From a virus, in the IMG/VR virus record IMGVR_UViG_3300007554_000447, positions 1-32,833 of that record: a stretch of DNA of 32,833 nucleotides. The stretch is one strand, 5' to 3'. Shown here piece by piece: positions 4,617 to 31,569 of this stretch. The position numbers and the translations under genes are program-made. The notes under the pieces were generated by a model, which was given only the letters and a program-made list of their open reading frames with translations, ran no database searches and was not told the DNA's origin. Each line of letters begins with the position of its first letter. Within the stretch, counting starts at the first letter, position 1.

Positions 4617-5126
4617 ATGGCACTGTCACATGTAATGAATGTTATTAGTAATGCAGGAATAGTAGGAGCAGGCACGGGTAGCGGTGGCGGCGGTGGCGGC
4701 GGCAGTAACTTGGACAGCCAAACTGTTACTGTTGGTACAGCGTCCGCAGCAACAGGCGGTAGCGGTGCACCTACAGGCACAACCACTCGTAGAGGCTACT
4801 CCGGCATCTATGCCTTTGGCTCTGTCTCTGATGGAACAAGCAATCTTTATAGTGGCGCAGCATTCTCAGAGATTCAATATAGTTGGGATACTTATTATCC
4901 TATCTCTGCGGTTACCCTACGGATTGTCGGGAACGGTCTCGCAAATAGTGGCTGGACTACTTTAACTATAGGCACTACAGCTTATCAAAGATCGAGCGCG
5001 AGCTATAGTGCAACATACGCTGGCCAAAATATTACGACTTGGTATTGGTACAGCGGATCCGATAATACCGGTGCAGCTAATCCATTCGCAGCCACTGGGC
5101 AAACCACGACTTGTGTGTTTACATAA
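4617..5126 (+). CDS. Glycine-rich small structural or adhesin-like protein
   Basis: 169 residues. A short N-terminal helix-like part (MALSHVMNVISNAG) is followed by a GSGGGGGGGS linker at about residues 21-30 and a beta-rich S/T/G/Y domain ending in a TTCVFT strand, similar in style to the ends of the fibre paralogues. It lacks the MAIKI module. The linker plus tip plan fits a short tail-attached adhesin. Base composition is visibly richer in G and C than the flanking genes, which hints at separate acquisition. Start has AGGAAA 6 nt upstream. No family recognised. Confidence 0.5.
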   Translation: MALSHVMNVISNAGIVGAGTGSGGGGGGGSNLDSQTVTVGTASAATGGSGAPTGTTTRRGYSGIYAFGSVSDGTSNLYSGAAFSEIQYSWDTYYPISAVTLRIVGNGLANSGWTTLTIGTTAYQRSSASYSATYAGQNITTWYWYSGSDNTGAANPFAATGQTTTCVFT

Positions 5127-5151
5127 TAACTAATTATAAAGAGATATAAAA

Positions 5152-6120: not shown

Positions 6121-6127
6121 TGTTTAG

Positions 6128-6817: not shown

Positions 6818-7635
6818 TGGCCATAGCTAACTATTTCTATAACGAAACCACACGCAAATATGTTGCCCTTTTTGGTACATACTTTAATCAATTGCAAGTT
6901 CAGAGAGTTGATAATGGTGGAGTAACACAACAAACAATGATTGTGCCGATCTCTTATGCGCCTTATCAAAAGATATTATCTCGTCTAGATCAAAATCCAG
7001 ATTATAAAGCAAAAGCTGCTGTTACTTTACCGCGTATGTCGTTTGAAATGACAAATATGTCGTATGATGCAGAACGTAAAATCTCACCAATTACTAAAAT
7101 AAGAAAAACAGTAGTTGATGATGCATTAGGTGGTCGTAAGTTTGTTTACGCAGGTGTTCCATATAATTTAGATTTCCAACTGTTTATTATGACTAAATAC
7201 CAAGAAGACGCAGTTAAGTTATTAGAACAAGTTATTCCATTCTTTAATCCAGACTATACACGAACAGTAAGACTTATGACTGGTTTAGAACCAATTGATA
7301 TCCCTTTGATATTAAATGGTGTTTCGATGGACGAAGTATACGAAGGAAGTTTTGACGAACGAAGAGCAATAGTTTATACACTTAACTTTACTATGAAAGC
7401 ATGGTACTTCGGGCCTGAGAAATCAAGTGAAGTTATTAAGTTTATTGATATACGATATGCTACAGACTCAACTACTAATACTGAGCCAGAAGAGTTTTAC
7501 ACATTACAACCTGGTATGGATGCTAATAATGCTGCAACTACAGACCAAGATCTTTCTGTTGATTACAGCTTAATAGACTATGACGATGATTGGGATTACG
7601 CACCTCAGATTGCAAATACTGCACCTTCATCTTAG
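6817..7635 (+). CDS. 15: gp15-like tail terminator / sheath stabiliser
   Basis: 272 residues, the same length as T4 gp15. MAIANYFYNETTRKYVALFGTYFNQLQVQR and the YAPYQKILSRLDQNP and LPRMSFEMTNMSYD blocks are characteristic. gp15 forms the ring that caps the tail tube and sheath and meets the neck. The last 45 residues are acidic and low in complexity (DYDDDWDY near the end). TAATGG start-stop overlap with gp14. Confidence 0.9.
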   Translation: MAIANYFYNETTRKYVALFGTYFNQLQVQRVDNGGVTQQTMIVPISYAPYQKILSRLDQNPDYKAKAAVTLPRMSFEMTNMSYDAERKISPITKIRKTVVDDALGGRKFVYAGVPYNLDFQLFIMTKYQEDAVKLLEQVIPFFNPDYTRTVRLMTGLEPIDIPLILNGVSMDEVYEGSFDERRAIVYTLNFTMKAWYFGPEKSSEVIKFIDIRYATDSTTNTEPEEFYTLQPGMDANNAATTDQDLSVDYSLIDYDDDWDYAPQIANTAPSS

Positions 7636-7638
7636 GGG

Positions 7639-7667
7639 TTGACATTTGCACCAAAGTGTGTTATAAT
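7639..7667 (+). promoter_or_regulatory. Consensus sigma70 promoter before nucleotidyltransferase gene
   Basis: TTGACA at 7639-7644, a 17 nt spacer, and TATAAT at 7662-7667: both hexamers and the spacing match the bacterial vegetative consensus exactly. It starts 4 nt after the gp15 stop and leaves a leader of about 27 nt. It should let the nucleotidyltransferase gene be read early by host polymerase although it lies inside the late structural block. Confidence 0.85.
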
Positions 7668-7700
7668 ATATAATTAGATCTATAAGATGACGGAGATATT

Positions 7701-8114
7701 ATGAGTAGAATTGGATTTACGTGCAGCGCATTTGATTTGTTACATGCAGGACACGTGCAAATGTTAAGAGATGCAAAATCTCAGTGTGACTATTTAATGG
7801 TAGGATTACAAATGGATCCTGCTAAAGATAGACCAAAAGACAAGAACCCGCCCATACAAACAATTGTTGAAAGATACACACAGCTCAAGGCAATATCATA
7901 TGTCGATGAGATTATACCTTATAACACAGAACAAGATCTTTTAGATCTGTTAGAATTGTATCATATTGATGTTCGTATCTTAGGAGACGAGTATAGAGAC
8001 AAAGAGTTTACTGGTAAAGATATTTGTCGAAAACGTGATATTGAATTGCATTTTAATAAAAGAGATCATAGGTTTAGTACTTCTGGGCTACGAAAAGCTT
8101 GCGCCCTTAAATGA
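7701..8114 (+). CDS. Glycerol-3-phosphate cytidylyltransferase-like protein
   Basis: 137 residues, a single nucleotidyltransferase domain of the TagD type. GFTCSAFDLLHAGH carries the HxGH motif, VDEIIPY and LGDEYRD fit the central strands, and HRFSTSGLRK matches the RTxGISTS motif at the end of the active site. Such enzymes activate glycerol- or other sugar-phosphates with CTP. A gene of this kind between gp15 and gp16 also occurs in related marine T4-like phages as I remember them. It has its own consensus sigma70 promoter, so it is probably expressed early, with a purine-rich ribosome site (GACGGAG). Substrate unknown; a role in host envelope change or virion glycan is inference. Confidence 0.8.
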   Translation: MSRIGFTCSAFDLLHAGHVQMLRDAKSQCDYLMVGLQMDPAKDRPKDKNPPIQTIVERYTQLKAISYVDEIIPYNTEQDLLDLLELYHIDVRILGDEYRDKEFTGKDICRKRDIELHFNKRDHRFSTSGLRKACALK

Positions 8115-8203
8115 AATACGACAGACTAAGATCAGCAGCTTATGGAGAAGGCCGTCGATGGTTTCGATGGTGGTTAATATTTACAGGTCAACGAAGGTCA
8201 TAA
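8111..8203 (+). CDS. Putative 30-residue basic micro-protein
   Basis: ATG at 8111 overlaps the stop of the nucleotidyltransferase gene (ATGA), giving a coupled 30-codon frame. The product is basic and tryptophan-rich (GRRWFRWWLIFTGQRRS at the end) and could bind membrane or nucleic acid. It lacks its own ribosome site and its stop lies inside the gp16 late promoter. It fills the only gap between two genes. Coding status is plausible but unproven. Confidence 0.35.
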   Translation: MKYDRLRSAAYGEGRRWFRWWLIFTGQRRS

Positions 8204-8206
8204 ATA
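8199..8206 (+). promoter_or_regulatory. Late promoter before gp16/gp17
   Basis: CATAAATA, one mismatch to the TATAAATA late element, ends 5 nt before the gp16 ATG at 8211. The expected start of transcription would give little or no leader, so it may serve gp17 more than gp16, or the true gp16 start may lie slightly downstream (an ATG at 8244, codon 12). Confidence 0.45.
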
Positions 8207-8210
8207 GATA

Positions 8211-8717
8211 ATGAAACAAGATAAAATAGCTGAGGTTCTTAACATGCGATCGCTAGAAGACGCTGACGAGAGAAAACAAGCAATATTAGATGGAGTCAGA
8301 GAGAATGATCCTGAAGTTCTTCCTATTGTTATTGCTGAAGACGAGGAAGTTGATAACTTACCTGTAGAAGGTGTAGTACAACCTCTCGCAGTTGTAGATA
8401 GCCAGGCTGATGAGAATCTAAAAGATATTGAGTTAGCCAAAGAAAATATCGAGAATATTATTAACTTGGGTGATGAGTCAATCAAAGAAATGGTTGAGAT
8501 TGCAAAGCAGTCTGAGTCACCAAGAGCCTTTGAAGTTGTATCCACTTTAATGAAAACACTACTTGACGCTAACAAAGATTATGTTGAAATGTCAACAAAG
8601 AAAAGATATGCTAAAGAAGAAGCAAATCCTTCTAAAACTGAAGTTACTAATAATAATTTAATATTATCTACTGCCGACTTACTTAAAATGATAAATGGTG
8701 AACAAGATAAAACATGA
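8211..8717 (+). CDS. 16: gp16-like terminase small subunit
   Basis: 168 residues (164 in T4). The central part, from LKDIELAKENIENII to EMVEIAKQSESPRAFEVVSTLMKTLLDANKDYVEMSTKKR, is the helical core typical of T4-type small terminases, and the tail NLILSTADLLKMI is conserved in marine T4-like phages. It forms a ring that recognises DNA and regulates the gp17 motor. Its stop overlaps the gp17 start by the ATGA arrangement at 8714. Confidence 0.85.
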   Translation: MKQDKIAEVLNMRSLEDADERKQAILDGVRENDPEVLPIVIAEDEEVDNLPVEGVVQPLAVVDSQADENLKDIELAKENIENIINLGDESIKEMVEIAKQSESPRAFEVVSTLMKTLLDANKDYVEMSTKKRYAKEEANPSKTEVTNNNLILSTADLLKMINGEQDKT

Positions 8718-10321
8718 GTAATGGATATTTAGGAAACTCATATCTCAAGCGATCAGCTGAAGCTATAGAGTATACGCCTGAACAAATAAAAGAATTTATG
8801 AAATGTGCTAAGGATCCCATATACTTTGCAAAAAGTTATATTAAGATTGTGCACGTTGATAGAGGCTTAGTACCATTTGACATGTATGATTATCAAAAAG
8901 AAATTTGCAATAAAATCTTTGCAAATCGACGTGCTTGTGTTTTAACGGCTCGTCAGTCTGGTAAAACAACTACTGCTGTTGCTGTTATATTACATTACAT
9001 ATTGTTTAACGAATTTAAGACTGTTGCTATCCTTGCTAACAAAGGAGATGCTTCTAGAGAAGTTATGGGTAGGCTCAAGTTAGCATATGAAGCGTTACCG
9101 AAATGGCTACAACAAGGTATCGAAGAGTGGAATAAGGGTAATATAGCACTAGAGAATGGTTGTCAAGTATTAGCAGGAACAACATCTTCAAGCGCTATTC
9201 GTGGTAAGTCTGTAAATTTCCTATATCTAGATGAGGTTGCATTCATTGAAGGTTACGATGAGTTTTTCGCTTCTGTATATCCTACTATTTCATCTGGTGA
9301 ATCTACCAAACTATTAATGACCTCCACCCCCAACGGCTTAAATCATTTTTGGAAAACTTGTAAAGGTGCTGAAGAAGGTACTAATGGTTACGAGTTTACT
9401 AAAGTAATGTGGAACGATGTACCAGGTAGAGATGAAAAATGGAGAGCCGAAACGCTCGAAGCTTTAGATCATGACGAACAAAAGTTTAAACAAGAATATT
9501 GTTGTGAATTTTTAGGTAGTTCAGGAACACTCATTGATGGTTCTAAATTAAAAGAATTAGCTTATTCACGGCCAATACAAGAAAGAGAATTCTTAACACA
9601 ATACGAAGCAGCTTTAGAAGATCATACGTATGTAATAACAGTTGACGTATCTCGTGGTAAAGGATTAGATTATAGTACGTTTAATGTAATAGATATAACA
9701 ACTATGCCTTATAAGCAAGTCTGCACTTTTAGAGACAACACTGTCTCACCAGTGGATTTCGCGGCAATTATATATAGAATAGGATTAATGTACAATGAGG
9801 GCGCGGTACTTATCGAAATCAATGATATCGGTGAACAAGTATCAGATGTGCTCTTAATGGACTATGGTTATGAAAATCTGTTGTTTACTGAAAACGCAGG
9901 AAGATCTGGTAAAAGGATTTCAAGCGGGTTTGGTAAAAGAACAGATAATGGAATAAGAACAACAAAAAGTGTTAAAAGTATCGGTTGTTCTATATTAAAA
10001 ATGCTGATTGAACAGAATCAGTTAATTTTACAGGATTATAACACAATACAAGAGTTATCGCGATTTTCTAAACGAGGATCATCATACGAAGCGGAATCTG
10101 GTGCACACGACGATTTGGTAATGAATTTAGTTATCTTTTCGTGGTTAACGGATCAGGCCTTCTTCAAAGATCTTACTGATATTAATACTATGATGCGCTT
10201 AAGGCAAAAAACAGAAGAACAAATCGAACAAGATTTATTACCATTCGGATTTATAGATGATGGTGGTGAAACTATAGAAGACGATGGGTATGGTTTTGCT
10301 AGAGAGTCATGGCAGATATGA
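8714..10321 (+). CDS. 17: gp17-like terminase large subunit
   Basis: 535 residues (610 in T4). ATPase domain: Walker A ARQSGKTT at residues 79-86, Walker B FLYLDE at 169-174, coupling motif LLMTSTPNG at about 201-208. RNase H-fold nuclease domain: VITVDVSRG with Asp311, LIEINDIG with Glu368 and Asp371, and GAHDDLVM with Asp466/467. It cuts the concatemer and pumps DNA into the prohead through the gp20 portal. Coupled to gp16 by a 4-nt overlap. The shorter length reflects a reduced N-terminus compared with T4. Confidence 0.95.
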   Translation: MSNGYLGNSYLKRSAEAIEYTPEQIKEFMKCAKDPIYFAKSYIKIVHVDRGLVPFDMYDYQKEICNKIFANRRACVLTARQSGKTTTAVAVILHYILFNEFKTVAILANKGDASREVMGRLKLAYEALPKWLQQGIEEWNKGNIALENGCQVLAGTTSSSAIRGKSVNFLYLDEVAFIEGYDEFFASVYPTISSGESTKLLMTSTPNGLNHFWKTCKGAEEGTNGYEFTKVMWNDVPGRDEKWRAETLEALDHDEQKFKQEYCCEFLGSSGTLIDGSKLKELAYSRPIQEREFLTQYEAALEDHTYVITVDVSRGKGLDYSTFNVIDITTMPYKQVCTFRDNTVSPVDFAAIIYRIGLMYNEGAVLIEINDIGEQVSDVLLMDYGYENLLFTENAGRSGKRISSGFGKRTDNGIRTTKSVKSIGCSILKMLIEQNQLILQDYNTIQELSRFSKRGSSYEAESGAHDDLVMNLVIFSWLTDQAFFKDLTDINTMMRLRQKTEEQIEQDLLPFGFIDDGGETIEDDGYGFARESWQI

Positions 10322-10346
10322 TAAATGAATACAACCTTTCTGTTTT

Positions 10347-10393
10347 TATAAATAGAACTGTGATAACTAATTTTAGACAAAAAGTTTTAAATA
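10347..10393 (+). promoter_or_regulatory. Two late promoter elements before gp18
   Basis: An exact TATAAATA at 10347-10354 and a TTTAAATA variant at 10386-10393 lie in the 95 nt gap before gp18, which also has a strong AAAGGAG ribosome site. Double late elements fit the high demand for tail sheath protein. Confidence 0.65.
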
Positions 10394-10416
10394 GATAATA
10401 TTAAAGGAGAAATAAT

Positions 10417-12339
10417 ATGGCTTTTTCCGTAAGTCCTTCGGTTATAGTTCGCGAAGTGGACGCATCAGCCGCGGTACCGGCCATCGCTACGCCACCTGCT
10501 GCAATTGCTGGTGTTTTTAGATGGGGTCCGGTAGGTGAAACAGTACTAGTTTCTTCAGAGAATGAATTAGTAAACCGTTTTGGCGAACCAAATAACGATA
10601 ACTATGAGACATTCTTTGTTGCAGCAGACTACCTTTCATACTCAAATGCTCTTTATGTAGCTCGTGTAGATAACGGTGCTGTCACAGCCTCTGCTAGTGA
10701 TATTTCAAGTGCAAATACACAACTACACACTTTTGGTGCATTCGATGCATTATATCCAGGAGATCTGGGTAATTCATTGGAAGTAGCATACGTACAAAAT
10801 ACTGCGTTTGAGAACAATGTAATTGCTGTTGCTGATATAGCAGCGTCAAGATTAACTGGTAATACACAAATCGGTCAAACACTTGCATTTAATGCATCTT
10901 CGATTGTATTTGAAGTACTTCCAAGTGCTGCTCTAGCAGCTGATACCTTTGCAGAAGGTGATATTGTTGAAGTTGGTAACGAATCTGTTGGATATCAAGA
11001 CATTGCTGTAAGCACATTTACAGAGAGAACCTTGACTGCTGCTGGTGATGCCACCGCTAACACTTCACTTATTGCTTCACACGAATACACAATCGGTCTT
11101 GGAACAAACTACAAGCTTGCAGAAGACGATTTAAATAAGTTGAGTTTGGCACGTAAGTGGAAATACCACAATTCATTCGGTAAAGCACCGCAAACTGGTA
11201 ACTATCACGTCTTAGTTAGAGACGAAGATGGAGTTATTACTGGTGAAGCAGGTACTATACTAGAGCTTTATGAAGATGTAGGTACATCTCAATCTGCTGT
11301 ACTACCTGATGGAACAACAAATTACTACAAGCAAGTGATTGAAAACAAATCAAGTTGGGTTAAAGTTGCTAATACAGCACACTTTGAAGGCGTTGCTCAA
11401 TACAGCACATACGAGAGTTTAGCACTTGGTACTTCAGGTACTTCTGAATCAGCTACATCTCTTGGTGCTAAAGCAGCTGGTTACGACTTGTTTAAATCGT
11501 CAAATGAAATTGATGTTTCATTCATTCTTCAAGGTAAAGGTGACAACTCAGGTAATCTTGCTAACTATATCATTTCTAATATCTCAGATTATAGAAAAGA
11601 TTGTGTTGCATTCCTATCACCTTCTAAAGAAGCAGTAGTAGACGAAAATAAAACAAACGCAAAACTTACTAAAACGATTGCATATAGAAATGCCCTTCAG
11701 AATAGCTCATACTGGTTTATGGATTCTGGATATAAGTACAGATACGATAAGTATAATGATTTTTATCGTTGGGTACCACTTAATGGTGATACTGCTGGTC
11801 TGGCTTCAAGAGTTGAACCTTTTGAATCTCCTGCTGGTTTCCGTAAGGGTGTAATCAAGAATGTTGTTAAACTTGCGTTTAATCCTAATAAAGCTCATAG
11901 AGATCAACTCTACAGCAAAGATATTAACCCAGTAATGAGTCAAGTAGGTCAAGGAATTGTACTATTTGGTGATAAAACAGGACTTGGTTTAACTTCAGCA
12001 TTTGACAGATTAAATGTACGAAGACTGTTTATCTCGGTTGAAAAGGCGATTGCTAATGCAGCTCAAACATTCTTGTTTGAATTAAACGACGAATTTTCTC
12101 AAACACAGTTTAAGAATATCGTTGAACCTTTCCTAAGAGAAATTCAAGGACGAAGAGGTATAATTGACTTTAGAGTTATTGCTGACGCTACTGTTAATAC
12201 TCCTGCGGTAATTGATCAAGGTAAATTTAAAGCTAATATCTTTATTAAACCGGCCCGTTCAATTAACGTTATTGAATTAACCTTTGTGGCAACACGAAGT
12301 GGGATTGAGTTTGAAGAAATTGTCGGCTCAATCGGTTAA
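10417..12339 (+). CDS. 18: gp18-like tail sheath protein
   Basis: 640 residues (659 in T4). The N-terminus (FSVSPSVIVREVDASA, then PAIATPPAAIAGVFRWGPVGE) and C-terminus (RLNVRRLFISVEKAIANAAQTFLFELND, FIKPARSINVIELTFVATRSG) are the conserved handshake and core regions of contractile sheath subunits. About 138 copies would surround the tube in a T4-sized tail and contract at infection. Preceded by late elements and AAAGGAG. Confidence 0.95.
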   Translation: MAFSVSPSVIVREVDASAAVPAIATPPAAIAGVFRWGPVGETVLVSSENELVNRFGEPNNDNYETFFVAADYLSYSNALYVARVDNGAVTASASDISSANTQLHTFGAFDALYPGDLGNSLEVAYVQNTAFENNVIAVADIAASRLTGNTQIGQTLAFNASSIVFEVLPSAALAADTFAEGDIVEVGNESVGYQDIAVSTFTERTLTAAGDATANTSLIASHEYTIGLGTNYKLAEDDLNKLSLARKWKYHNSFGKAPQTGNYHVLVRDEDGVITGEAGTILELYEDVGTSQSAVLPDGTTNYYKQVIENKSSWVKVANTAHFEGVAQYSTYESLALGTSGTSESATSLGAKAAGYDLFKSSNEIDVSFILQGKGDNSGNLANYIISNISDYRKDCVAFLSPSKEAVVDENKTNAKLTKTIAYRNALQNSSYWFMDSGYKYRYDKYNDFYRWVPLNGDTAGLASRVEPFESPAGFRKGVIKNVVKLAFNPNKAHRDQLYSKDINPVMSQVGQGIVLFGDKTGLGLTSAFDRLNVRRLFISVEKAIANAAQTFLFELNDEFSQTQFKNIVEPFLREIQGRRGIIDFRVIADATVNTPAVIDQGKFKANIFIKPARSINVIELTFVATRSGIEFEEIVGSIG

Positions 12340-19421: not shown

Positions 19422-20249
19422 TTAAATTAGCGATCTGCCTAACGCAGAACCTATTTCTTGGAATTGGTGTATAGGGCCTTCTTGTACACTGATTTTCATT
19501 GTCTCAAAGTTCCTTCCTATTATTTTTATATTACCATTTGTTATTATAGATAACATACCAATAGGTGTTTGACAATCTCCATCTATTTCTTTAAGTGCTT
19601 GCTTTTCAGCCATAGCCATATACCAAGTATCCCAATGATTTACATTAGATAAAGCGGTTGACATACGATCGTCTATTCTCATTTGTAAAGCAATAACACC
19701 TTGACCTGGTGCAGGTAACATATCAGCAGTTCCAAATACTCTTGATATCTTATGTGTTAATCCGAGAGCATCAAGTCCTGCTTTTGCTAAGATTATCGCG
19801 TCGTATTCTCCATTCTCTTGCTTATTAATCCTTGTATCTATATTACCTCTTATGGGAACAACTTCAGCATTAGGATATAACTCACGTATCTGCTGGATCC
19901 TTCTAGGACTACTTGTGCCTATACTCCTTGGGTTAATATTATTACCTACAAGGCAGTCGTGGTGGTCATTTCTGGGGAGTACACAAGGTATGTGTAAGTG
20001 AGCATCGTTATCTCGAGTGAGATCTTTAAATGCGTGGATAGCAATATCTATTTGTTTATCCATTAAGCTTTGTTCTATCTCTTTACAGAACACACCTTTA
20101 CCACCCATTTCTTCAATGGCAGTAGTAGGGTTTAGATCTCCAGTAGAGTCTATTAATATCGTGTTCGTTTGAAAAGGAATAAGCTTAGTAGCTTGTTCAG
20201 TATACGCAAGAGCTAGCTTAGACTTGCGAGTTCCAACAAGTGGTATCAT
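19422..20249 (-). CDS. hemC: Porphobilinogen deaminase (hydroxymethylbilane synthase)
   Basis: 275 residues, shorter than the roughly 310 of E. coli HemC. It would join four porphobilinogens into hydroxymethylbilane, a step of heme synthesis. Conserved features: GTRKSKLALA at residues 6-15, HAFKDL at 72-77 (Lys75, Asp76 at the catalytic place), GTSSPRR at 111-117, IRGNIDTR at 133-140 (substrate-binding arginines), LPAPGQGVIALQ at 178-189, and Cys226 in GDCQTPIG, the attachment residue for the dipyrromethane cofactor. The usual GGC is GDC here and the C-terminal domain is short. The start has AAGGA 7 nt upstream and lies 13 nt after the tRNA-Glu gene on the same strand. All key residues are present, so it is probably active. 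Confidence 0.93.
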   Translation of the reverse strand: MIPLVGTRKSKLALAYTEQATKLIPFQTNTILIDSTGDLNPTTAIEEMGGKGVFCKEIEQSLMDKQIDIAIHAFKDLTRDNDAHLHIPCVLPRNDHHDCLVGNNINPRSIGTSSPRRIQQIRELYPNAEVVPIRGNIDTRINKQENGEYDAIILAKAGLDALGLTHKISRVFGTADMLPAPGQGVIALQMRIDDRMSTALSNVNHWDTWYMAMAEKQALKEIDGDCQTPIGMLSIITNGNIKIIGRNFETMKISVQEGPIHQFQEIGSALGRSLI

Positions 20250-20262
20250 AATATATCCTTTT

Positions 20263-20337
20263 TGGCACTCCGTAGGAGAGTCGAACTCCTGTTGCCGAGA
20301 TGAAAACCCGGTGTCCTAACCACTAGACGAACGGAGC
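20263..20337 (-). tRNA. tRNA-Glu, anticodon UUC
   Basis: A complete 75-nt cloverleaf: acceptor GCTCCGT/ACGGAGT with a G-U first pair, D arm GTCT/GGAC with loop AGTGGTTA, anticodon stem CCGGG/CTCGG with loop TTTTCAT (anticodon TTC), T arm AGGAG/CTCCT with loop TTCGACT, discriminator G and an encoded CCA. It lies between a small phage gene and hemC in the - strand operon, so it must be cut from that transcript. Phage tRNAs usually support translation of the phage genome; Glu codons GAA are abundant here. Confidence 0.95.
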
Positions 20338-23030: not shown

Positions 23031-23038
23031 TATAAATA
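23031..23038 (+). promoter_or_regulatory. T4-type late promoter of the curli-like cluster
   Basis: Exact TATAAATA 37 nt upstream of the first ATG (23075). It is the only promoter visible ahead of the seven-gene cluster on the + strand and implies late expression by phage-modified polymerase. The leader contains an 11-nt repeat of the AGCC/AGCT type (GAAGCCCTAGATAGCTTC), which can form a short hairpin before the ribosome site. Confidence 0.75.
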
Positions 23039-23074: not shown

Positions 23075-23371
23075 ATGGAACAGATTTTACAGTTGATCTC
23101 TGACGTCGGACTGCCGATCGCCGGAGCTCTTGTAATGGGATTCTTTATCTTTATTATTATTAGACAGATTTTTGAAGGAATCGTTGATAGTATTAAGACA
23201 TTAACAATATTTTCGGAGGGCTTGGAGAATCGAGCTAGGTCTATGAGCAACGAAATTATCAAGATAGACTTACTTGTTAGTTCGGCATTAGGACTGACGC
23301 CGGACACTGATCGTATAGCTAGAGCCGAAAATTTTATTGAAGACGGAAAAGTGGATGTAAGGAGAGATTGA
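23075..23371 (+). CDS. Small membrane protein with helical tail (first gene of curli-like cluster)
   Basis: 98 residues. One transmembrane segment at about 12-31 (VGLPIAGALVMGFFIFIIIRQ), then an amphipathic helix (EGIVDSIKTLTIFSEGLENRARSMSNEIIKIDLLVSSALGL) that could form a coiled coil. The layout and the start LISDVGLPI resemble both the third gene of this cluster and small YvrJ/holin-like phage proteins. It may sit in the inner membrane and support export or lysis; neither is shown. GGAGC ribosome site 7 nt before ATG. Confidence 0.65.
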   Translation: MEQILQLISDVGLPIAGALVMGFFIFIIIRQIFEGIVDSIKTLTIFSEGLENRARSMSNEIIKIDLLVSSALGLTPDTDRIARAENFIEDGKVDVRRD

Positions 23372-23576: not shown

Positions 23577-23885
23577 ATGGAAGGATTAGACTTAGCTGCC
23601 TTAGTGCAGGAATACGGGTTTCCGACTATAATGGTTTGTGGTTTAGGATATTTTGTTTATTTCGTTTGGAAGTTTATCAACGAAACTATTGAACCGGCCA
23701 TCGACAAACATCATATGCAATTAATTAAAGTAATTGATCGGGTCCGCATGTTAGATCAAGACTTAATTAGATTGCAGCAAAAAGTGAATGTGGTTTTAGA
23801 ATATAAAGCTAAGGACGGTCTTATTAAAAAGGCTGAAGAAGAGCTTGAAAGAAAGACGAGGAAGAAAAATGAAGCTAAGGATTAA
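23577..23885 (+). CDS. Small membrane protein with coiled-coil tail
   Basis: 102 residues. N-terminal transmembrane segment (GFPTIMVCGLGYFVYFVWKFI, about 14-34) followed by a long helix with heptads (LIKVIDRVRMLDQDLIRLQQKVNVVLE) and a charged K/E tail. The plan, and the similarity of VQEYGFPTIMV to SDVGLPIAGAL, point to paralogy with the gene at 23075. The tail overlaps the csgF start by 17 nt. Possible inner-membrane partner for the curli pore or a holin-like protein; undecided. Confidence 0.65.
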   Translation: MEGLDLAALVQEYGFPTIMVCGLGYFVYFVWKFINETIEPAIDKHHMQLIKVIDRVRMLDQDLIRLQQKVNVVLEYKAKDGLIKKAEEELERKTRKKNEAKD

Positions 23886-24378
23886 AGTATTAATAGTATC
23901 ATTTGTAATAGGGGCACTTTTTACTGCTAACGATTTAGCGGCAGAACCCATAGTACACAGTTTTAAAAATCCATCGTTTAGTGGTATAGGAACAGGAGCT
24001 CACTACTTAACTGTTGAAAACCAAGAACATGGTAGAAAGAAAGCAATTAAAGATGCGATGGAAGCAGCGCAAAGAGCAGCACAACGAGCCGAAGAAAATA
24101 CAACATTGGCCAAATTCATTAGGAACTTGGAATCACGTATTTACGCTCAATTATCAAAACAGCTAGTAGACAACATGTTCTCTAACGACAACCCAGTTAG
24201 ATTTGGATCGTTTGTACTAGAAGGTTCCACAGTAACTTATGAAATAATCACAGCTGCTGATGGGACAGAATTTATAAAAATGACTATTGTTGATGAGAAT
24301 GGTTCAACAACTGTTATTGAGATCCCTATTGGATCTGGAAATTTTGGAAGCGACGATGGTACGACTGACGGCGGCTAG
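23869..24378 (+). CDS. csgF: CsgF-like curli assembly factor
   Basis: 169 residues from ATG 23869, chosen because GAGGAAG lies 5 nt upstream and the sequence opens with a signal peptide (MKLRIKVLIVSFVIGALFTA, cut near LAA-EP). The mature start, VHSFKNPSFSGIGTGAHYL, matches the FRNPNFGG...GAFLL segment of CsgF that plugs into the CsgG pore. The C-terminal part (LESRIYAQLSKQLVDNMF, then FGSFVLEGSTVTYEI and STTVIEIPIGSG) matches the two-strand domain of CsgF. Longer than E. coli CsgF (138), with an A/R/E-rich insert at about 55-75. CsgF couples secretion to nucleation at the outer membrane. Followed by csgG with a 23-nt overlap. Confidence 0.88.
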   Translation: MKLRIKVLIVSFVIGALFTANDLAAEPIVHSFKNPSFSGIGTGAHYLTVENQEHGRKKAIKDAMEAAQRAAQRAEENTTLAKFIRNLESRIYAQLSKQLVDNMFSNDNPVRFGSFVLEGSTVTYEIITAADGTEFIKMTIVDENGSTTVIEIPIGSGNFGSDDGTTDGG

Positions 24379-25318
24379 TTTAACCTTCCTGTTATTGTTA
24401 ACAGGTTGCGCTCAAATGCCACAGTGGTCTGATGGACCGGCTAACTGTGAGTATGGTAAAGGCCAATACGAAGAAGGTTGGAGTAAAGATCTATACACAG
24501 GTGTAAGACAATACACCGAAAGCAAACAGATTTGTATAGAATCTCCTGAAGTTATTAAGCTACCTTCGTATATTGATTTATTAGCTTTACCAAAAGCTAA
24601 GTCTATGCCAGTAGTTGCAGTATACGGATTTGCAGATAAAACCGGACAAAGAAAAGATTCACAAAGCGGACAGAGTTTCTCTACAGCAGTAACACAAGGC
24701 GGAACAGAGTTACTAATTGATGCTTTAAAGACAGCTGCAAACGGACATTGGTTTAGAGTAGTTGAACGAGAAGGTATTGACTCTCTTGTTCGTGAAAGAC
24801 AAATTATACGATCAGCTCGTGATGAGGCAGCTAAGAAGTTAAATACAAAGACTCAAGGAGTCGGGCCACTTCTTTTTGCAGGTATGATTATAGAAGGTGG
24901 AATTATTGGTTATGATAGTAATATTAGAACTGGAGGAAGAGGAGCAAGAACGTTAGGTATTGGTTTTAGTAATCAATATCGACAAGACGTAGTTACTGTT
25001 TCAATCCGTGCCGTTTCAGTATTAACCGGTGAAATATTATTGAATGTTCAAACTCGAAAAACTGTACTGAGTGTAGGCTCAGGTGGTGATCTGTTTAGAT
25101 TTATCGAACAAGGAACACAATTGATTGAGTATGAAGACGGAGTTGGTAATAATGAATCAGTGACTTACGCAGTACGTTCAGCTATTGAAGCTGGAGTATT
25201 AGAAATGGTATACCAAGGACACGATAGAGGTTTTTGGGAAATCGAGGCAGGCCATCGTCACCCCCATCAAAAAGATCATGATGGAACAAACGAAAAGCAT
25301 AGCCTCGATGAAAAATAA
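24356..25318 (+). CDS. csgG: CsgG-like curli secretion channel lipoprotein
   Basis: 320 residues from ATG 24356 (277 in E. coli). That start gives a lipoprotein signal MVRLTAASLTFLLLLTGC with Cys18 in the lipobox, and GGAAG lies 6 nt upstream. Nearly the whole CsgG domain is visible: MPVVAVYGFADKTGQRKD, SGQSFSTAVTQGG (the pore constriction loop, with Ser where E. coli has Asn55), VVEREGIDSLVRERQIIR, FAGMIIEGGIIGYDSN, GARTLGIG, VSIRAVSVLTGEILLNVQTRKTVLS and FRFIEQGTQLIEYE, then SAIEAGVLEMV. It should form the nonameric outer-membrane pore. A charged C-terminal extension (about 300-320, HRHPHQKDHD) is extra. Overlaps csgF. Confidence 0.94.
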   Translation: MVRLTAASLTFLLLLTGCAQMPQWSDGPANCEYGKGQYEEGWSKDLYTGVRQYTESKQICIESPEVIKLPSYIDLLALPKAKSMPVVAVYGFADKTGQRKDSQSGQSFSTAVTQGGTELLIDALKTAANGHWFRVVEREGIDSLVRERQIIRSARDEAAKKLNTKTQGVGPLLFAGMIIEGGIIGYDSNIRTGGRGARTLGIGFSNQYRQDVVTVSIRAVSVLTGEILLNVQTRKTVLSVGSGGDLFRFIEQGTQLIEYEDGVGNNESVTYAVRSAIEAGVLEMVYQGHDRGFWEIEAGHRHPHQKDHDGTNEKHSLDEK

Positions 25319-25330: not shown

Positions 25331-26062
25331 ATGAAACATAAAATATTAGGCTTATCTTTATTATGTTTATTTTCTTTCAACGCAATTGCTCAGGCAACTG
25401 ATGATAATGAGATTAACATCGACCAAACTGGTGATACATTAACATTGTATATTGATCAGTATGGATACGGTAACAAAATTGGATTAGACGACTTTTCAAG
25501 TTCTTCATCTCCAATGGCTGTTACTGGTTCTTCGTTAAACATTAACATCGATCAAATAGGTAATGAGAATTTACTATTTGGTACAATCGTTGCTGATAGC
25601 TCGACTTATAATCTTCTTTTTACAGGAGATAGTAATTCGTGGGATTGGAATATAGGATATGTTGGATCAGCCGATAGTTCTACTATAGACGTAGACATCA
25701 CAGGCGACTCAAACACTATGGACTTTGACCAAGGCTATAATGCAAGTGCAGAAAGATTAGATATGGATTTAACATTATTGGGAGATACGAATATTTTTGA
25801 TGTTGACATCGACGTAGATGACGCCATTTGGAATTTCGATATCACAGGTGCATCAAACAATATCAACACCATGCAAAAAGATGGTGGAGAGCAGGAAATC
25901 AACGTAACTTTAACCGGTGATTCAGCTGACATTGATATTAATCAAATGAGTGGTACTTGTGCTACGGGTGTTACTACTTGTAACGGTATCATAACTTTAG
26001 ATGTGACTTCAGATAATGCTACTATTCAAATCAATCAGAAAGACAGCTCTAACGACAGTTAA
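25331..26062 (+). CDS. Curlin-like secreted repeat protein 1 (CsgA/CsgB-like)
   Basis: 243 residues. Signal peptide MKHKILGLSLLCLFSFNAIAQA, then strand-turn repeats of the type (G)D-S/T-N-x-(hydrophobic)-x-x-x-Q that recall curlin repeats: NEINIDQTGDTLTLYIDQYG, SLNINIDQIGNEN, STIDVDITGDSNTMDFDQG, INVTLTGDSADIDINQMSG and a final ITLDVTSDNATIQINQ. Periodicity is about 20-25 residues but less regular than in E. coli CsgA, and Asp is far more common (DVDIDVDD near the middle). It directly follows csgG with GGGAAA before ATG, so it is the natural substrate of the pore. A late-stage amyloid or fibre outside the cell is inferred. Confidence 0.8.
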   Translation: MKHKILGLSLLCLFSFNAIAQATDDNEINIDQTGDTLTLYIDQYGYGNKIGLDDFSSSSSPMAVTGSSLNINIDQIGNENLLFGTIVADSSTYNLLFTGDSNSWDWNIGYVGSADSSTIDVDITGDSNTMDFDQGYNASAERLDMDLTLLGDTNIFDVDIDVDDAIWNFDITGASNNINTMQKDGGEQEINVTLTGDSADIDINQMSGTCATGVTTCNGIITLDVTSDNATIQINQKDSSNDS

Positions 26063-27182
26063 ATGCTTGATGGCGCTATCAATAGCGATTTCTTCGGGAG
26101 TCGTTATTGCAGCCCCGTCTATCGGCGAAATTGTTGAACATAAGGGCAGCTCCAAACTAGTTAGAGAGGCTGGAGATGAGCTTTTAGTCAGTGACACGCT
26201 TATTCCAACCGTTGAGCTTAATGATACAGCAGAAACATCCAATGGTCGTATGCTTATTCAGTTCTTGGATGAAGCAGAACTATCATTAACAGAACATACC
26301 AAAGTATACATCGATAAAGTATACTACGATCCCGACCCAAGCAAATCAAAAATGGCAATGAGAATGGCCATGGGCACTGCTCGCTTTGCTTCAGGTCGAT
26401 TAGGAATGGTCAATAAAAGTAATATTGACATTAAAACTCCCACGGCCTCAATAGCAGTTCGTGGAACAGATTTTACAACAACAATAGATGAGCTTGGGCG
26501 ATCGCTCGTGATTCTATTACCCGATGAATTCGGAAACTCTTCTGGTGAAATAACAGTATCCAATCTTGGTGGCTCAATTGTTCTTAATGAAGCCTATGCT
26601 GCTACGATGGTTTCCTCACTCGATACTCAACCAACAAAAAAATTATCATTACGTGGTATTACAACATCAATGATTGATAATATGTTTATTGTATCGCCTC
26701 CGCCCGAAGTTAAAGAAGCACTTGACGAGCGTCTTCAAAATGATTTAGATCAAGACAAAGGTTTATTAGATATTGACTTCTTAGATTTTGACGGATTAGA
26801 TGTCGATTACCTTGAAGACGACTCATTAGAATTTACTGAGCTCGACATCGATTATTTAAATGTTGATTTTCTTAGTGATGTTCTTGACGTTGTTGAGGCC
26901 TTAGTAGCATCCGCAGCAACTCTTGATGATAGTGCAATAAGCCAAACGTCATTAGGTGCAGAATTAAAAGGTGCTGCATTTGGTTTAAATCCAGATTCTC
27001 AATATAACATTTACGAAAGCGACGGTAAGATAGTATTCTATCGTGCTGTTAATGAAACAATCACAATTTATTTGGCTGTTGATGCAAGAGCAAGTATAAG
27101 AACAACGGTTGATGGATACGAAGGTATCATATTACTTAATGGTGGAGATGACACATTAATTGATCTAAGACAAGGGGGATAA
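26016..27182 (+). CDS. FecR-domain periplasmic protein
   Basis: 388 residues. A long signal sequence (basic KSIRK then MALSIAISSGVVIAA) is followed by a FecR domain at about 36-165: IGEIVEHKGSSKLVRE, GRMLIQFLDEAELSLTEHTKV, GTARFASGRLGM, and the hallmark IKTPTASIAVRGTDFTTT. FecR domains normally link a transducer to an ECF sigma factor, but no fecA or fecI is here. The C-terminal half has an acidic repeat of LDxD type (LLDIDFLDFDGLDVDYLEDD, about 250-290) and a final beta-like region. It overlaps the curlin 1 gene by 47 nt and has no ribosome site; ATG 26070 is a possible later start but would lose the basic n-region. It lies between two curlin genes, so it may bind or sense the fibre. Confidence 0.82.
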   Translation: MLLFKSIRKTALTTVKCLMALSIAISSGVVIAAPSIGEIVEHKGSSKLVREAGDELLVSDTLIPTVELNDTAETSNGRMLIQFLDEAELSLTEHTKVYIDKVYYDPDPSKSKMAMRMAMGTARFASGRLGMVNKSNIDIKTPTASIAVRGTDFTTTIDELGRSLVILLPDEFGNSSGEITVSNLGGSIVLNEAYAATMVSSLDTQPTKKLSLRGITTSMIDNMFIVSPPPEVKEALDERLQNDLDQDKGLLDIDFLDFDGLDVDYLEDDSLEFTELDIDYLNVDFLSDVLDVVEALVASAATLDDSAISQTSLGAELKGAAFGLNPDSQYNIYESDGKIVFYRAVNETITIYLAVDARASIRTTVDGYEGIILLNGGDDTLIDLRQGG

Positions 27183-27190: not shown

Positions 27191-27994
27191 ATGAAAACAG
27201 AACATGAAGAAAGAGCTTGGGAAAGATTTAGAAAGGCTACAGGTCCTCAAATTTGGACGGGCAGAGATTTAGGTACCTGGTTCGCGATGGGCGTATTTGT
27301 AGGTGCCATGATTATCGCACCTTTTACTTTTTCAGACGATAACGTCATTACAATGGAACAAACTGGTGATACTTTTCAATTAGGTATAGATCAATATGGT
27401 CACGCTAATGAAGTCAGTATGTTAGATGGTAATTCATATATTACAGCATCAAGTTTAGATATGTATTTGGTTCAGTACAATACCAACCCATCTGCAATGA
27501 CTAATAAGATTATATTCGACGAAGTAAGTGGTTCAGGTAATCAAATGAAACTTGCACAAGGTGTTGCGTGGACTACATTAGATTCTGATACAGATTTAAC
27601 TTGGTATGGTGATCTTTATGAATCAGGTGGACATGATATTGGTATCACAATGTATGGAGACAACAATCAATTAGCAGTTCAACAAACGAACCAAACAGGC
27701 GCGAGCGATGGACATAATTTTGATTTACATTTAGCAGGTGATAGTAATGAAGTTAAAATTAAACAACAAAGTAATGGAAGAAAGAATACTGATTTAACAA
27801 TTTACAATGACTATAACGATGTATTCGTTCGCCAAAAAGGTACTGGTGCAACTCACAACGCAACGATAACACTTGATGGTCTATATGGAACGGATCTTAC
27901 TTTAATTCAAATGAGTGATACAAATCAAACATATTCAGTATCAGTTAACTGTATGACTGTTGGTGGTTGCTCAACATCGGTAACACAAGACTGA
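27191..27994 (+). CDS. Curlin-like repeat protein 2, with N-terminal signal anchor
   Basis: 267 residues. It shares the module D-N-x-I-x-x-x-Q-T-G-D-T-x-x-L-x-I-D-Q-Y-G-x-x-N with curlin 1 (VITMEQTGDTFQLGIDQYG) and has further repeats: GSGNQMKLAQG, GDNNQLAVQQTNQTG, GDSNEVKIKQQSNG, YNDVFVRQKGTG. These G-x-x-N-x-x-x-x-x-Q units are closer to CsgA/CsgB than those of curlin 1. Instead of a plain signal peptide it has about 28 hydrophilic residues and then GTWFAMGVFVGAMIIAPFTF, which could be an uncleaved anchor, as expected of a nucleator held at the cell. Starts 8 nt after the FecR gene. Confidence 0.78.
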   Translation: MKTEHEERAWERFRKATGPQIWTGRDLGTWFAMGVFVGAMIIAPFTFSDDNVITMEQTGDTFQLGIDQYGHANEVSMLDGNSYITASSLDMYLVQYNTNPSAMTNKIIFDEVSGSGNQMKLAQGVAWTTLDSDTDLTWYGDLYESGGHDIGITMYGDNNQLAVQQTNQTGASDGHNFDLHLAGDSNEVKIKQQSNGRKNTDLTIYNDYNDVFVRQKGTGATHNATITLDGLYGTDLTLIQMSDTNQTYSVSVNCMTVGGCSTSVTQD

Positions 27995-28084: not shown

Positions 28085-29026
28085 ATGAAAACATTATTAC
28101 AAAGAACTATCAAGGATAAAGAAACGAACCTATATCCTGTTTGGCTTATGAGACAAGCCGGAAGATACATGCCAGTATATATGGCAATGAAAGCTCAATC
28201 AAATGGATTTCTCGACATGGCCCTCACACCATGGAAGGCAGCTGAAATAACAATGCAACCTATTCTTGAGTTTGATATGGACGCAGCCATTATCTTTTCA
28301 GACATACTTATTATAAATCACGCTCTTGGCCAAGAATTAGATTATAATCCGAGTCCCGTTCTAGGACCTTATAACGAATCTTTTTGGGATACAACTTTTG
28401 AAGAATTCAGTCTAAAATGTCAACCAGTATATGAGGCGATCAAGCTGGTTCGATCTGAACTTGACGAAAGTAAGTCACTAATCGGCTTTGCTGCAGCTCC
28501 TTATACACTCTGTAAGTACATGTATAACTCCCCACGGCTTGATATAGTTAATAAATTAATCCCTTATATAGTAGAGCATCTCTCCTCACAGATTGAGTAT
28601 GGATGTGATACGATACAAATCTTCGACAGTTGGGCTGGAGATATACCAGCTAATCAGTTTGATGATTATGTTATCAATCCAACAAAAGAGATTGTAGACG
28701 CTATTAGAAACCGTTATCCTGACGTTGGTATCATTGCATTCCCAAGATTAGTAGGTACTAAAATCAATGAATATATTGAAGTAGTAAATGCTGATTGTAC
28801 TAATATTAGTGACGACTTACCAGTTGACGAAATCAATGGTGAAGTACTTCAGGGTGGTATTGCTATCAAGAGATTAATTAAAGGAGAAGATATTACTCCT
28901 GTACTTGATAAAATGAGAGATAAAGCTTATGTTGTTAATCTTGCTCATGGAATTGATAAGACAACTCCAGTTGAGAATGTAAGACAGTTTGTAAATACAG
29001 TAAAAGAATATCGTAAAGGTGTTTAA
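28085..29026 (+). CDS. hemE: Uroporphyrinogen decarboxylase
   Basis: 313 residues, about 30-40 shorter than cellular HemE. It would remove four carboxyl groups from uroporphyrinogen to give coproporphyrinogen in heme synthesis. PVWLMRQAGRYMPVY (18-32) holds Arg23 and Arg27, FSDILIINHALG holds Asp73, LIGFAAAPYTLCKYM holds Tyr145, IQIFDSWAG holds Ser182, and NLAHGIDKTTPVENV holds His289. These match the five catalytic or substrate-binding positions of the family, so activity is likely. The ribosome site is poor. The stop overlaps the GTG start of the cyclase gene, so the two are coupled. A TATAAATT right before ATG is too close to be its promoter. Confidence 0.94.
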   Translation: MKTLLQRTIKDKETNLYPVWLMRQAGRYMPVYMAMKAQSNGFLDMALTPWKAAEITMQPILEFDMDAAIIFSDILIINHALGQELDYNPSPVLGPYNESFWDTTFEEFSLKCQPVYEAIKLVRSELDESKSLIGFAAAPYTLCKYMYNSPRLDIVNKLIPYIVEHLSSQIEYGCDTIQIFDSWAGDIPANQFDDYVINPTKEIVDAIRNRYPDVGIIAFPRLVGTKINEYIEVVNADCTNISDDLPVDEINGEVLQGGIAIKRLIKGEDITPVLDKMRDKAYVVNLAHGIDKTTPVENVRQFVNTVKEYRKGV

Positions 29027-31061
29027 ATATTTAACAAAATGGTGGACTGTACTATTTACGATTGCTGGTTTTGCAGCTCTTAGTATATCTAATCCATCAT
29101 TTATACAATCATTAGAATATAGTTATTATGACGCGTTACAGCAGAATAAAGAAAAAAAGAATATTGAGGAAGTGGTACTTGTCAACATTGACGAAAGAGC
29201 TATTGCTGCCGAAGGTCAGTATCCGTGGCCCCGTGGGTCTATTGCTAAGTATATTAATAGTGGGCCTGACGATTCTTTATATGTCTTCAACGTAATTTAT
29301 TCAGAAGAAGATAGATTTAAAGAAGATCATTTATTACAGGAAGCAATGGCAACTAAAGCTGTTGTATTAGCTTCGGCTCCAACTCAACAAACAACTGGAG
29401 GTGTAGGCAACTTTGTCGGTGTTGCTACATTTGGTGACCAAGATGAAAACTGGCTCTACAATATTCCGGGATTACTTTATCCCATCGATAGTCTTTCTAG
29501 TTATGCCTTTGGCATTGGCGGTGTTCTTGCAGTACCTGACGAACCAACTGGGGTTGTGCGAAGAAGCCCACTTGTTGTCAATGCAGCAGGAAATCAATAT
29601 CCCAGTCTCGCTCTTGAGACTTTGCGGGTCTTCTCTGGAGAGTCTTCCTATCAAATGAAAGTAGGCACCAATGGTGTCGAGTGGATTCGTATGGGTCGTC
29701 AAGATCCAATCACAACAAATAGCTTTGCTGAAGTGCCTATTTCTTTCTGGAATCAGTTCGAGCAAATAAGCATAACAGACCCACTACCAGCAGGGAAAGT
29801 ATTACTATTTGGAATAACCGCAGAAGGCTATTCTAATCCAGTCGCAACCCCAATGGGTGCAATGTATCCCCACGAAGTTCAAGCTCAGCTGATCCAGACC
29901 TTGATTTCAGGAGAACAAATAACGATTCCCGACTGGCAGCCAGTACTTGAGCTTGTGTTTCTGGTTTTAGTGAGTCTAGGTATCCTTGCAGCGGTCTATA
30001 TTTTGCCCACAATTCCAGGGGTGGTAGTGTCTCTCGGTCTACTCTTTGCTGCATTCGCATCGAGTTATTACCTGTGGACTTCTGCCTTAGTATTTTTTGA
30101 CGCAACCTTATGTTCATTAGCTTCCTTAGTAGTATTTGCACAATCAAACTTTAATGTATATTATATCACATTCCAACAGAAACGTCAAATAGAAAAACAA
30201 TTTGCTGGGTATGCTTCGCCCACTGTCGTACGTCTATTAAAAGAGAATCCTACTCTAATAAAAGATGGTATGAAACGAGAGGTCAGTATTTGCTTTTCTG
30301 ATTTGAGAGGGTTTACACCACTTGGAGAAAGCTTCGGCGATGATGTTAAAGGTTTAACAAAATTAATGAATGGATATATGGATGCCATTACTGAGCCTGT
30401 CCTCCAAGCAAATGGAATGATTATAAAGTATATAGGCGATGCTAGTATGCATATCCACAACGCTCCTTTGGAAGATCCAAACCACCCAACGGCAGCAGTA
30501 GAAACCGGTTTGAGTATGCTTAGAGCAGTGGAGAAATTTAATGAAGAAATTACAAGAGACGGAAGACCACCCATTGGTATGGGTGCTGGGATCAATACTG
30601 GGCTTGGTTATCTTGGCGAGATGGGGTCTACCAAGCGACACAGCTACGATGTTCTCGGAGATGCTGTTAGCACAGCTGCTCGAATTGAATCAAAATGTAA
30701 AGAATATGGGTGCCTACTTTTAGTTGGTGGAGATACTGTTAAACAGTGTGATAATAAATTCTTTTTCTTAAAGGTCGACGATCTTGCTGTAAAAGGTAAA
30801 ACAGTTGGAATTGAAATATTTACAGTATTAGACTTAAAGAAAGATAAGTATCTTAAACCAGCAGAGATGCATCAACACATGTATGATAACTATCAGAAAC
30901 AAGATTTTGATAAAGCAATTAAAATGTGTAATGATTTAATGGAATGTTTCGAAGGTCAAATGTCAGGATATTATAACATGTGGATTGAGCGTTGTGAATA
31001 CATGAAGACGCAAGATCTACCCAAGGATTGGAATGGAATCTTTATCGCAACATCTAAATAA
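29019..31061 (+). CDS. CHASE2-domain transmembrane class III adenylate cyclase
   Basis: 680 residues from GTG 29019, which overlaps the hemE stop. Membrane segment at about 9-24, extracytoplasmic CHASE2 sensor at about 30-305 (VVLVNIDERAIAAEGQYPWPR, GVVRRSPLVVN, LFGITAEGYSNPVATPMG, MYPHEVQAQLIQTL), three closely spaced membrane helices at about 308-376, a linker with FAGYASPTVVRLL, and the cyclase domain at about 420-600. Metal aspartates are Asp428 in CFSDLRGFT and Asp474 in KYIGDASMHI. Lys470 and Asp544 (YDVLGD) are the ATP-selecting pair, and Arg555 is the transition-state arginine. The usual Asn between them is Ser551. The C-terminus, ending DWNGIFIATSK, is that of bacterial CHASE2 cyclases. 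It should make cAMP in response to an external signal. Confidence 0.93.
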   Translation: MFKYLTKWWTVLFTIAGFAALSISNPSFIQSLEYSYYDALQQNKEKKNIEEVVLVNIDERAIAAEGQYPWPRGSIAKYINSGPDDSLYVFNVIYSEEDRFKEDHLLQEAMATKAVVLASAPTQQTTGGVGNFVGVATFGDQDENWLYNIPGLLYPIDSLSSYAFGIGGVLAVPDEPTGVVRRSPLVVNAAGNQYPSLALETLRVFSGESSYQMKVGTNGVEWIRMGRQDPITTNSFAEVPISFWNQFEQISITDPLPAGKVLLFGITAEGYSNPVATPMGAMYPHEVQAQLIQTLISGEQITIPDWQPVLELVFLVLVSLGILAAVYILPTIPGVVVSLGLLFAAFASSYYLWTSALVFFDATLCSLASLVVFAQSNFNVYYITFQQKRQIEKQFAGYASPTVVRLLKENPTLIKDGMKREVSICFSDLRGFTPLGESFGDDVKGLTKLMNGYMDAITEPVLQANGMIIKYIGDASMHIHNAPLEDPNHPTAAVETGLSMLRAVEKFNEEITRDGRPPIGMGAGINTGLGYLGEMGSTKRHSYDVLGDAVSTAARIESKCKEYGCLLLVGGDTVKQCDNKFFFLKVDDLAVKGKTVGIEIFTVLDLKKDKYLKPAEMHQHMYDNYQKQDFDKAIKMCNDLMECFEGQMSGYYNMWIERCEYMKTQDLPKDWNGIFIATSK

Positions 31062-31569
31062 GTTCTTAATACTTATTTTAATATCACTACCTGCTATGGG
31101 TGGTAAACCAACAGAAGTACAAATAGGAAATTGGAATCACGGATGGACGGCTCCATATAAGGATGAGTATGTATCTAAGTATACGAGTGATCCTATATCA
31201 TATCTACCATACGATCTTAACTTTGAAATAGAACTTAGTACTGATCGCCAAATAACAAAAGAACAGTACGCATTAACGGCAATGATCATTGCGAATATTG
31301 CTGACGTACATTCAACTCGTCGAGGTATGAGATACGATTGTTTGGTAGAAGCAAATCCTTTTCTACCAGAAAGACCTAACGTTGCAGAGATGGTTATTTT
31401 AAAAGGCGCAACCATATTACCTATAAGACATTATTTGTGGCCTACAAAAGAAGAGAAGTACTATTACGATAGGTTTACTAGTGTGTTGGTAGCAGCTGCT
31501 GCATATAACAATTATAAATTAGTTAAGAAGGCTCGAGATAATCCTTTCTGTAAAAAATTAGGACAATAA
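31033..31569 (+). CDS. Small exported or membrane protein (DUF5658-like pattern)
   Basis: 178 residues. N-terminal hydrophobic segment FLILILISLPAMG (signal peptide or anchor), then a soluble part and ALTAMIIANIADVHSTRRG followed by CLVEANPFLPERPNVAEMVILKGATI, a D-x-x-S/T...EANP pattern recalling DUF5658-type membrane proteins. A further weakly hydrophobic segment lies at about 150-160. It overlaps the cyclase gene by 29 nt with AAGGA 7 nt upstream. Because it is coupled to the cyclase it may be a partner, but function is unknown. Confidence 0.65.
   Translation: MESLSQHLNKFLILILISLPAMGGKPTEVQIGNWNHGWTAPYKDEYVSKYTSDPISYLPYDLNFEIELSTDRQITKEQYALTAMIIANIADVHSTRRGMRYDCLVEANPFLPERPNVAEMVILKGATILPIRHYLWPTKEEKYYYDRFTSVLVAAAAYNNYKLVKKARDNPFCKKLGQ

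Follow-up and report, generated by a model that had tools for sequence, protein, structure and literature searches.

Judged from its sequence, the catalytic domain of a membrane CHASE2 cyclase encoded by a marine T4-like phage, like that of most phage copies recovered, is a phage-specific form of the class III cyclase domain with an altered active site. The gene lies on an IMG/VR contig of 32,833 bases, referred to here as the window. Identity patterns and trees indicate that this derived form has spread among phages by domain replacement at residues ~385–396, beneath otherwise unrelated sensors.

The cyclase gene and its curli–FecR cluster

The window phage encodes T4-like neck, tail-sheath-stabiliser, terminase, sheath and capsid genes, and its capsid protein is nearest, among isolates, to those of Melnitz and of Sinorhizobium phages such as phiN3 and phiM12 (64–65% identity). 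The cyclase closes a run of genes on the plus strand:

23031–23038, +: T4-type late promoter element TATAAATA, at the head of the cluster and 44 nt ahead of its first gene
23075–23371, +: small membrane-protein gene, phrog_18771
23577–23885, +: second small membrane-protein gene, phrog_18771
23845–24378, +: csgF (Pfam CsgF, E 3.9e-15)
24356–25318, +: csgG, with its probable start at 24356 inside the ORF 24287–25318 (Pfam CsgG, E 1.2e-52)
25331–26062, +: curlin-repeat protein, CsgA/B-like (Pfam Curlin_rpt, E 7.7e-4, slightly below cut-off; position as in Melnitz and HTVC008M)
26016–27182, +: FecR-domain protein with signal peptide, the proposed partner of the CHASE2 sensor (Pfam FecR, E 1.2e-8)
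27191–27994, +: second curlin-like protein (no Pfam match; position and repeat pattern as in the second curlin of Melnitz)
28085–29026, +: hemE-like uroporphyrinogen decarboxylase, a subclade insertion (Pfam URO-D, E 1.8e-68; under the NCBIfam hemE cut-off)
29019–31061, +: CHASE2 adenylate-cyclase-family protein (GTG start, 680 aa, no internal stops)
31033–31569, +: exported protein of no known family, overlapping the 3' end of the cyclase by 29 bases and present in the window subclade only

The original prediction had the cyclase next to curli genes; the curli neighbourhood stands, but the gene sits inside the curli–FecR operon and is not merely near it. A search of other phage contigs for CHASE2 plus cyclase recovered the same gene order in dozens of them, and in HTVC008M, Melnitz and independent contigs the cyclase likewise closes a csgF–csgG–curlin–fecR–curlin run, and it is last in nearly every case. 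Where viral loci offer upstream sequence of 6 kb or longer (n=56), curlin genes occur in all 56, CsgG in 54, FecR in 53 and CsgF in 51. All four plus-strand copies of TATAAATA in the window lie 38–70 nt upstream of an ORF start, a placement for which 5.2% of positions qualify; the total number of such copies is not above chance. Across phage loci, a late promoter element is found within 900 nt upstream of csgF in 27 of 55, against about 5 expected, some of these loci being near-copies of one another.

Several neighbouring features vary among relatives. The hemE-like gene separates the second curlin gene from the cyclase in the window and in L002, L006, L007, L008 and L103, with one more hemE match in L148; in the window its end shares 8 bases with the GTG start of the cyclase. 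It is one of two heme-pathway genes of the window phage, the other being hemC (hydroxymethylbilane synthase; 19422–20337, minus strand, above the NCBIfam cut-off), which has a tRNA-Glu gene 13 nt upstream. A porphobilinogen deaminase has been reported in a pelagimyophage (PMC7029224). Look-alikes of phrog_18771 adjoin the cyclase, downstream on the opposite strand, in L009 and L139, and the phrog_18771 pair may therefore belong to the curli module. The exported protein downstream of the cyclase carries a conserved D-V-x-S/T-T...ANP motif. Elsewhere in the window are two nucleotidyltransferase-like genes of the RfaE domain II/glycerol-3-phosphate cytidylyltransferase type (860–1621 and 7701–8114), one of them fused to a GMP_PMI-like C-terminal domain.

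Curli genes had already been reported in pelagimyophages (PMC7029224) and in Melnitz (PMC9004378), and the combination of curli genes, FecR and cyclase in marine phages has been known since 2022, when the available text of PMC9599517 described pelagiphages of the Podoviridae and Myoviridae whose curli genes are accompanied by FecR and an adenylate cyclase, and assigned these two an alphaproteobacterial origin from single-gene trees. The original prediction that no described phage system joins a membrane cyclase to curli genes is thus wrong, given that account and the annotations of HTVC008M and Melnitz. As far as that text describes the pelagiphage T8SS module, of which HTVC008M and Melnitz are examples, the window shares its genes, its order (CsgF, CsgG, curlin, FecR, cyclase), its setting in marine T4-like phages and its alphaproteobacterial origin, and differs in the hemE-like insertion before the cyclase. 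The histidine kinase upstream in the podovirus form is absent in the window, where the two phrog_18771 proteins are found. The terms 'CHASE', 'catalytic' and 'active site' do not occur in the main text of PMC9599517, and the CHASE2 type, the FecR–CHASE2 pairing, the altered active site and the sensor/catalytic mosaic were not found in the available published accounts of the pelagiphage T8SS.

Architecture and active site of the derived form

Pfam matches and an AlphaFold2 model (mean pLDDT 87.9) give the layout of a CHASE2 receptor cyclase, with an N-terminal membrane helix, a mixed sensor fold, three further helices (307–328, 331–356 and 363–396) and a cyclase domain. The parts and the active-site residues are as follows:

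29043–29090, +: membrane helix 1, residues 9–24 (AlphaFold2 model)
29073–29975, +: CHASE2 sensor, residues 19–319 (Pfam CHASE2, E 1.3e-31, over the curated cut-off)
29937–30167, +: membrane helices 2–4, residues 307–383 (AlphaFold2 model)
30171–30206, +: recombination junction between sensor and catalytic halves, residues ~385–396 (identity switch)
30273–30803, +: class III cyclase catalytic domain, derived phage form, residues 419–595 (Pfam Guanylate_cyc, E 5.6e-16, over the curated cut-off)
30300–30302, +: metal-binding Asp428, invariant in 169 of 169 sequences
30426–30428, +: adenine-specifying Lys470, invariant
30438–30440, +: metal-binding Asp474, invariant
30648–30650, +: adenine-specifying Asp544, Ser/Thr in bacterial relatives (alignment)
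30669–30671, +: Ser551, replacing the canonical ribose/transition-state Asn (alignment)
30681–30683, +: transition-state Arg555, invariant

The complete membrane cyclase in a phage genome foreseen in the original prediction is thus present, as are the paired metal Asp residues, the ATP-type Lys/Asp pair, the Arg and a C-terminal tail of the bacterial kind (W(D/N)GV type); the prediction overlooked Ser551. The Guanylate_cyc domain, the fold, the two metal-binding Asp and the Arg mark a class III nucleotidyl cyclase. Its fold can be laid over those of CyaB (3r5g; Z 26.4, rmsd 1.7 Å over 189 residues) and CyaC (1wc4; Z 25.4) in the catalytic domain, and RhGC with converted specificity (5oyh) is also among the structural matches. 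Neither the sequence matches nor the fold matches included a PDB structure of a CHASE2 sensor, a result uninformative by itself. Both halves of the gene are under purifying selection, the catalytic half (dN/dS 0.06–0.13) being more constrained than the sensor half (0.13–0.28), which places the gene far beyond chance.

Five residues (D428, K470, D474, D548 and R555) show zero variation across 92 viral and 77 bacterial sequences (n=169), and K592 is also present in the window cyclase. A Lys/Asp pair is the standard ATP-specifying pair in cyclases, and K470 and D544 form such an adenylate-type pair here. Against this background, eight positions are changed jointly in 81 of the viral sequences, the window included, relative to the bacterial ones: I469 for D, S/T476 for I/V/L, H478 for A, I/V479 for F, H480 for W, E534 for N, D544 for S/T and S551 for N. 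The remaining 11 viral sequences, which include HTVC008M, agree with the bacterial ones at nearly all eight. Viral sequences were ranked by likeness to the window, and the 81:11 ratio of derived to canonical forms (40:8 in a thinned set) is therefore no estimate of prevalence.

Asn occupies position 551 in 77 of 77 bacterial relatives and 11 of 92 viral sequences, and Ser in 81 of 81 derived ones; the equivalent residue of adenylyl cyclase binds ribose (PMC3591389). The window cyclase thus lacks the Asn that lies four residues before the Arg in a canonical class III site, and homology and fold therefore place it as a relative of the class III enzymes without making it one with the canonical site. 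No precedent for an Asn-to-Ser change at this ribose/transition-state position was found in the literature. Residues 476, 478 and 480 alternate along the strand that immediately follows Asp474 in the secondary structure of the AlphaFold2 model, and their side chains therefore probably face the side of D474.

The exact derived motif occurs in at least 120 viral stretches and is absent from all 398 cellular genomes examined from one phylum. Its sole cellular record (L093) is a contig in a Pirellulales (Planctomycetota) MAG, in which a phage-type cyclase follows fecR and curlin; it is taken as a probably mis-binned phage contig because its gene order is phage-like.

Exchange beneath the sensor and the pairing with FecR

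The two halves of the window cyclase have different nearest relatives. Its sensor half is 62–72% identical to those of phages with canonical domains (L169/L133) and 36–42% identical to derived ones outside its own subclade, whereas its catalytic half is 82–90% identical to derived domains and 42–50% identical to those of canonical phages. HTVC008M shows the opposite pattern, and in both cases identity switches at residues ~385–396. In the catalytic tree, which was computed after masking of the trait columns, all derived domains group together (100) on a single stem of 3.0 substitutions per column; in the sensor tree, a single clade of derived rows is rejected (delta lnL 296, AU p = 1e-4). These trees come from 'quick' searches and some branches are long, but the identity pattern alone suffices to establish the exchange of halves. 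The exchange is visible between the near relatives L002 and L103 too, which differ at synonymous sites by 0.24 in the sensor half and 0.75 in the catalytic half. The eight-position change, together with swapping beneath retained sensors, suggests selection on the strength or control of the output and not on the input.

FecR appears to travel with the sensor. Window and L169 are 61% identical in FecR, 67% in the sensor and 39% in the catalytic half; for HTVC008M and Melnitz the values are 51%, 58% and 37%. FecR divergence tracks that of the sensor beyond CsgG (partial r 0.32; CsgF 0.08), and its partial correlation with the catalytic half is also non-zero (0.25), making the FecR–sensor link just modestly specific.

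The pairing recurs in bacteria. In a set of 77 CHASE2-cyclase loci, FecR lies directly upstream (offset −1) at 30 of 75, compared with 2 of the 306 positions farther than three genes from the cyclase (Fisher p 1e-21), an enrichment with fewer independent cases than counted because the set is rich in Bradyrhizobium. In annotated plasmid relatives, fecR adjoins the cyclase or stands one gene away. Over half of the bacterial loci examined have no match to the FecR profile within three genes; in some, the cyclase instead has genes for type I secretion or giant adhesins beside it, and a fusion of a cNMP-binding domain and HlyD is also found next to it. We infer that the common theme of these loci is the monitoring of secretion to the surface. 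In one marine alphaproteobacterial locus (L058, 4076–10334), a C39 ABC transporter, a cNMP-binding–HlyD adaptor fusion and a CHASE2 cyclase stand in a row; gene order is similar in L069, L076 and L081, the domains having been scanned in L058 only. In loci of this type, cAMP may gate type I secretion directly.

Published systems share parts of this arrangement. FecR adjoins a CHASE2 cyclase in Campylobacterota clusters (PMC9239204) and a CHASE2 kinase in a Burkholderia operon (PMC5192318), where curli genes are not reported and the partners are TPR/phosphodiesterase or kinase proteins. The Sinorhizobium cyclases CyaD1, CyaD2 and CyaK are of the same CHASE2 receptor type; they take their input through the envelope, fed by the outer-membrane barrel NsrA, and raise cAMP, for which Sinorhizobium has its own receptor, Clr (PMC13001267). 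Bacterial CHASE2 cyclases are ~30% identical to that of the window and keep Asn551, Ser/Thr544 and DK...AFWNAP.

In bacteria, a complete run of this kind is found in L023 (CANGEH010000001.1), from a Caulobacteraceae MAG, which carries csgF–csgG–curlin–curlin–fecR–CHASE2 cyclase at 3992–11084, followed by a PycTM gene (Pfam E 8.8e-25) 442 nt after the cyclase. It shares csgF, csgG, two curlins, fecR and the CHASE2 cyclase with the window but differs in being cellular (a contig of GC 56% that also encodes a TonB receptor and further genes of cellular type), in its canonical active site and in the PycTM gene. In the tree, the L023 cyclase is the sister group of the phage cyclases as a whole (SH-aLRT 99). 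The architecture of the phage protein is bacterial, as the original prediction says, and so is its origin. On the strength of this one MAG, the phage operon has a counterpart in cells. Of 299 genomes of the L023 order, 34 have CsgF; the loci covered, 30 of the 34, contain CsgF/CsgG, a few with curlin, and show no FecR or cyclase, but they span only ~3.4 kb each, so that a distant cyclase would escape. The full-length L023 FecR does not recur beyond its FecR domain in 385 genomes of its class.

Proposed role of the cyclase and competing readings

It seems somewhat probable, from gene order and residue conservation, that the protein is a late-expressed, curli/FecR-gated sensor cyclase that makes cAMP from ATP and forms the signalling end of the phage curli (type VIII secretion) module. 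The cluster would be transcribed late in infection from the T4-type late promoter element, and the periplasmic CHASE2 domain would read the exported FecR protein, the state of the curli pore or fibre, or both. The signal would travel through the helices at residues ~363–400 to homodimeric catalytic domains converting ATP to cAMP, which would act on a host cyclic-nucleotide receptor. No cNMP-binding domain (PF00027) was found in 15 related phage records, HTVC008M and Melnitz included, so the signal would have to be picked up by a protein of the host or by one of the phage that has escaped recognition. The most likely purpose of the cAMP would be to report or gate completed curli secretion ahead of lysis.

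A fairly unlikely alternative is the 2022 proposal, modelled on the enteric cAMP–CsgD route, that cAMP raised by the phage cyclase turns on or adjusts the expression of curli in the course of infection. The available text of PMC9599517 and the constant co-location of the cyclase with curli genes favour it. CsgD, however, is absent from these phages according to the same text, and a late promoter element of its own heads the cluster. That text also treats FecR as a ferric-citrate regulator, whereas FecR usually adjoins CHASE2 cyclases without curli genes.

The derived domain might instead be weak or dead and act as a structural or dominant partner in the receptor. The fixed replacement of the ribose-binding Asn (PMC3591389) by Ser in all derived sequences, with seven more fixed changes around the cleft, is consistent with this idea. 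We consider it unlikely, given that both metal Asp residues, Lys470, Asp544, Arg555 and Lys592 are kept and that the catalytic half is the more constrained.

It is improbable that the derived domain gives another product or uses another nucleotide, by which the phage would escape host or competitor control of ordinary cAMP. Its single long stem and the coordinated, non-conservative changes I476S, A478H, W480H and N534E on cleft-lining strands would fit such a shift, but Lys470/Asp544 is the standard ATP pair, and the structural matches include RhGC with converted specificity (5oyh).

The PycTM gene of L023 raises the thought that the operon senses the surface, is related to Pycsar defence and is kept by the phage for superinfection exclusion. 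This is very improbable, since PycTM was not found in the related phage records searched and the cellular case is a single one. Membership of Pycsar itself was rejected: the PADLOC PycC models match only the shared class III domain, and no effector lies beside the cyclase. The chance that the contig is a phage–host chimera or assembly artefact, an outcome that would have undone the original prediction, is negligible, because the curli–cyclase gene order is shared with the isolates HTVC008M and Melnitz and with dozens of independent contigs, and nothing was found in its support.

A broader and speculative reading, which we hold to be unlikely, is that a class III catalytic module evolved by marine phages themselves, its active-site chemistry re-wired or its product a different one, is handed on as a cassette under a variety of CHASE2 sensors that read curli/FecR, giving a phage-owned late-infection second-messenger circuit.

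The synthesis of second messengers by phage-encoded enzymes has rarely been put to the test. Should FecR and CHASE2 act together as a single sensing module, the 'iron regulator' label given to FecR in the 2022 model, as set out in the available text of PMC9599517, needs revising. L023 points to a possible curli-linked cyclic-nucleotide circuit in a bacterium. The natural swaps of sensor and catalytic halves at a single junction are ready-made chimeras for studying how CHASE2 drives cyclases. If the derived cyclase is active, it would be a phage-specific cyclase form whose product could be tested with one expressed domain. The part worth following is this exchangeable, phage-specific catalytic module with its altered active site.
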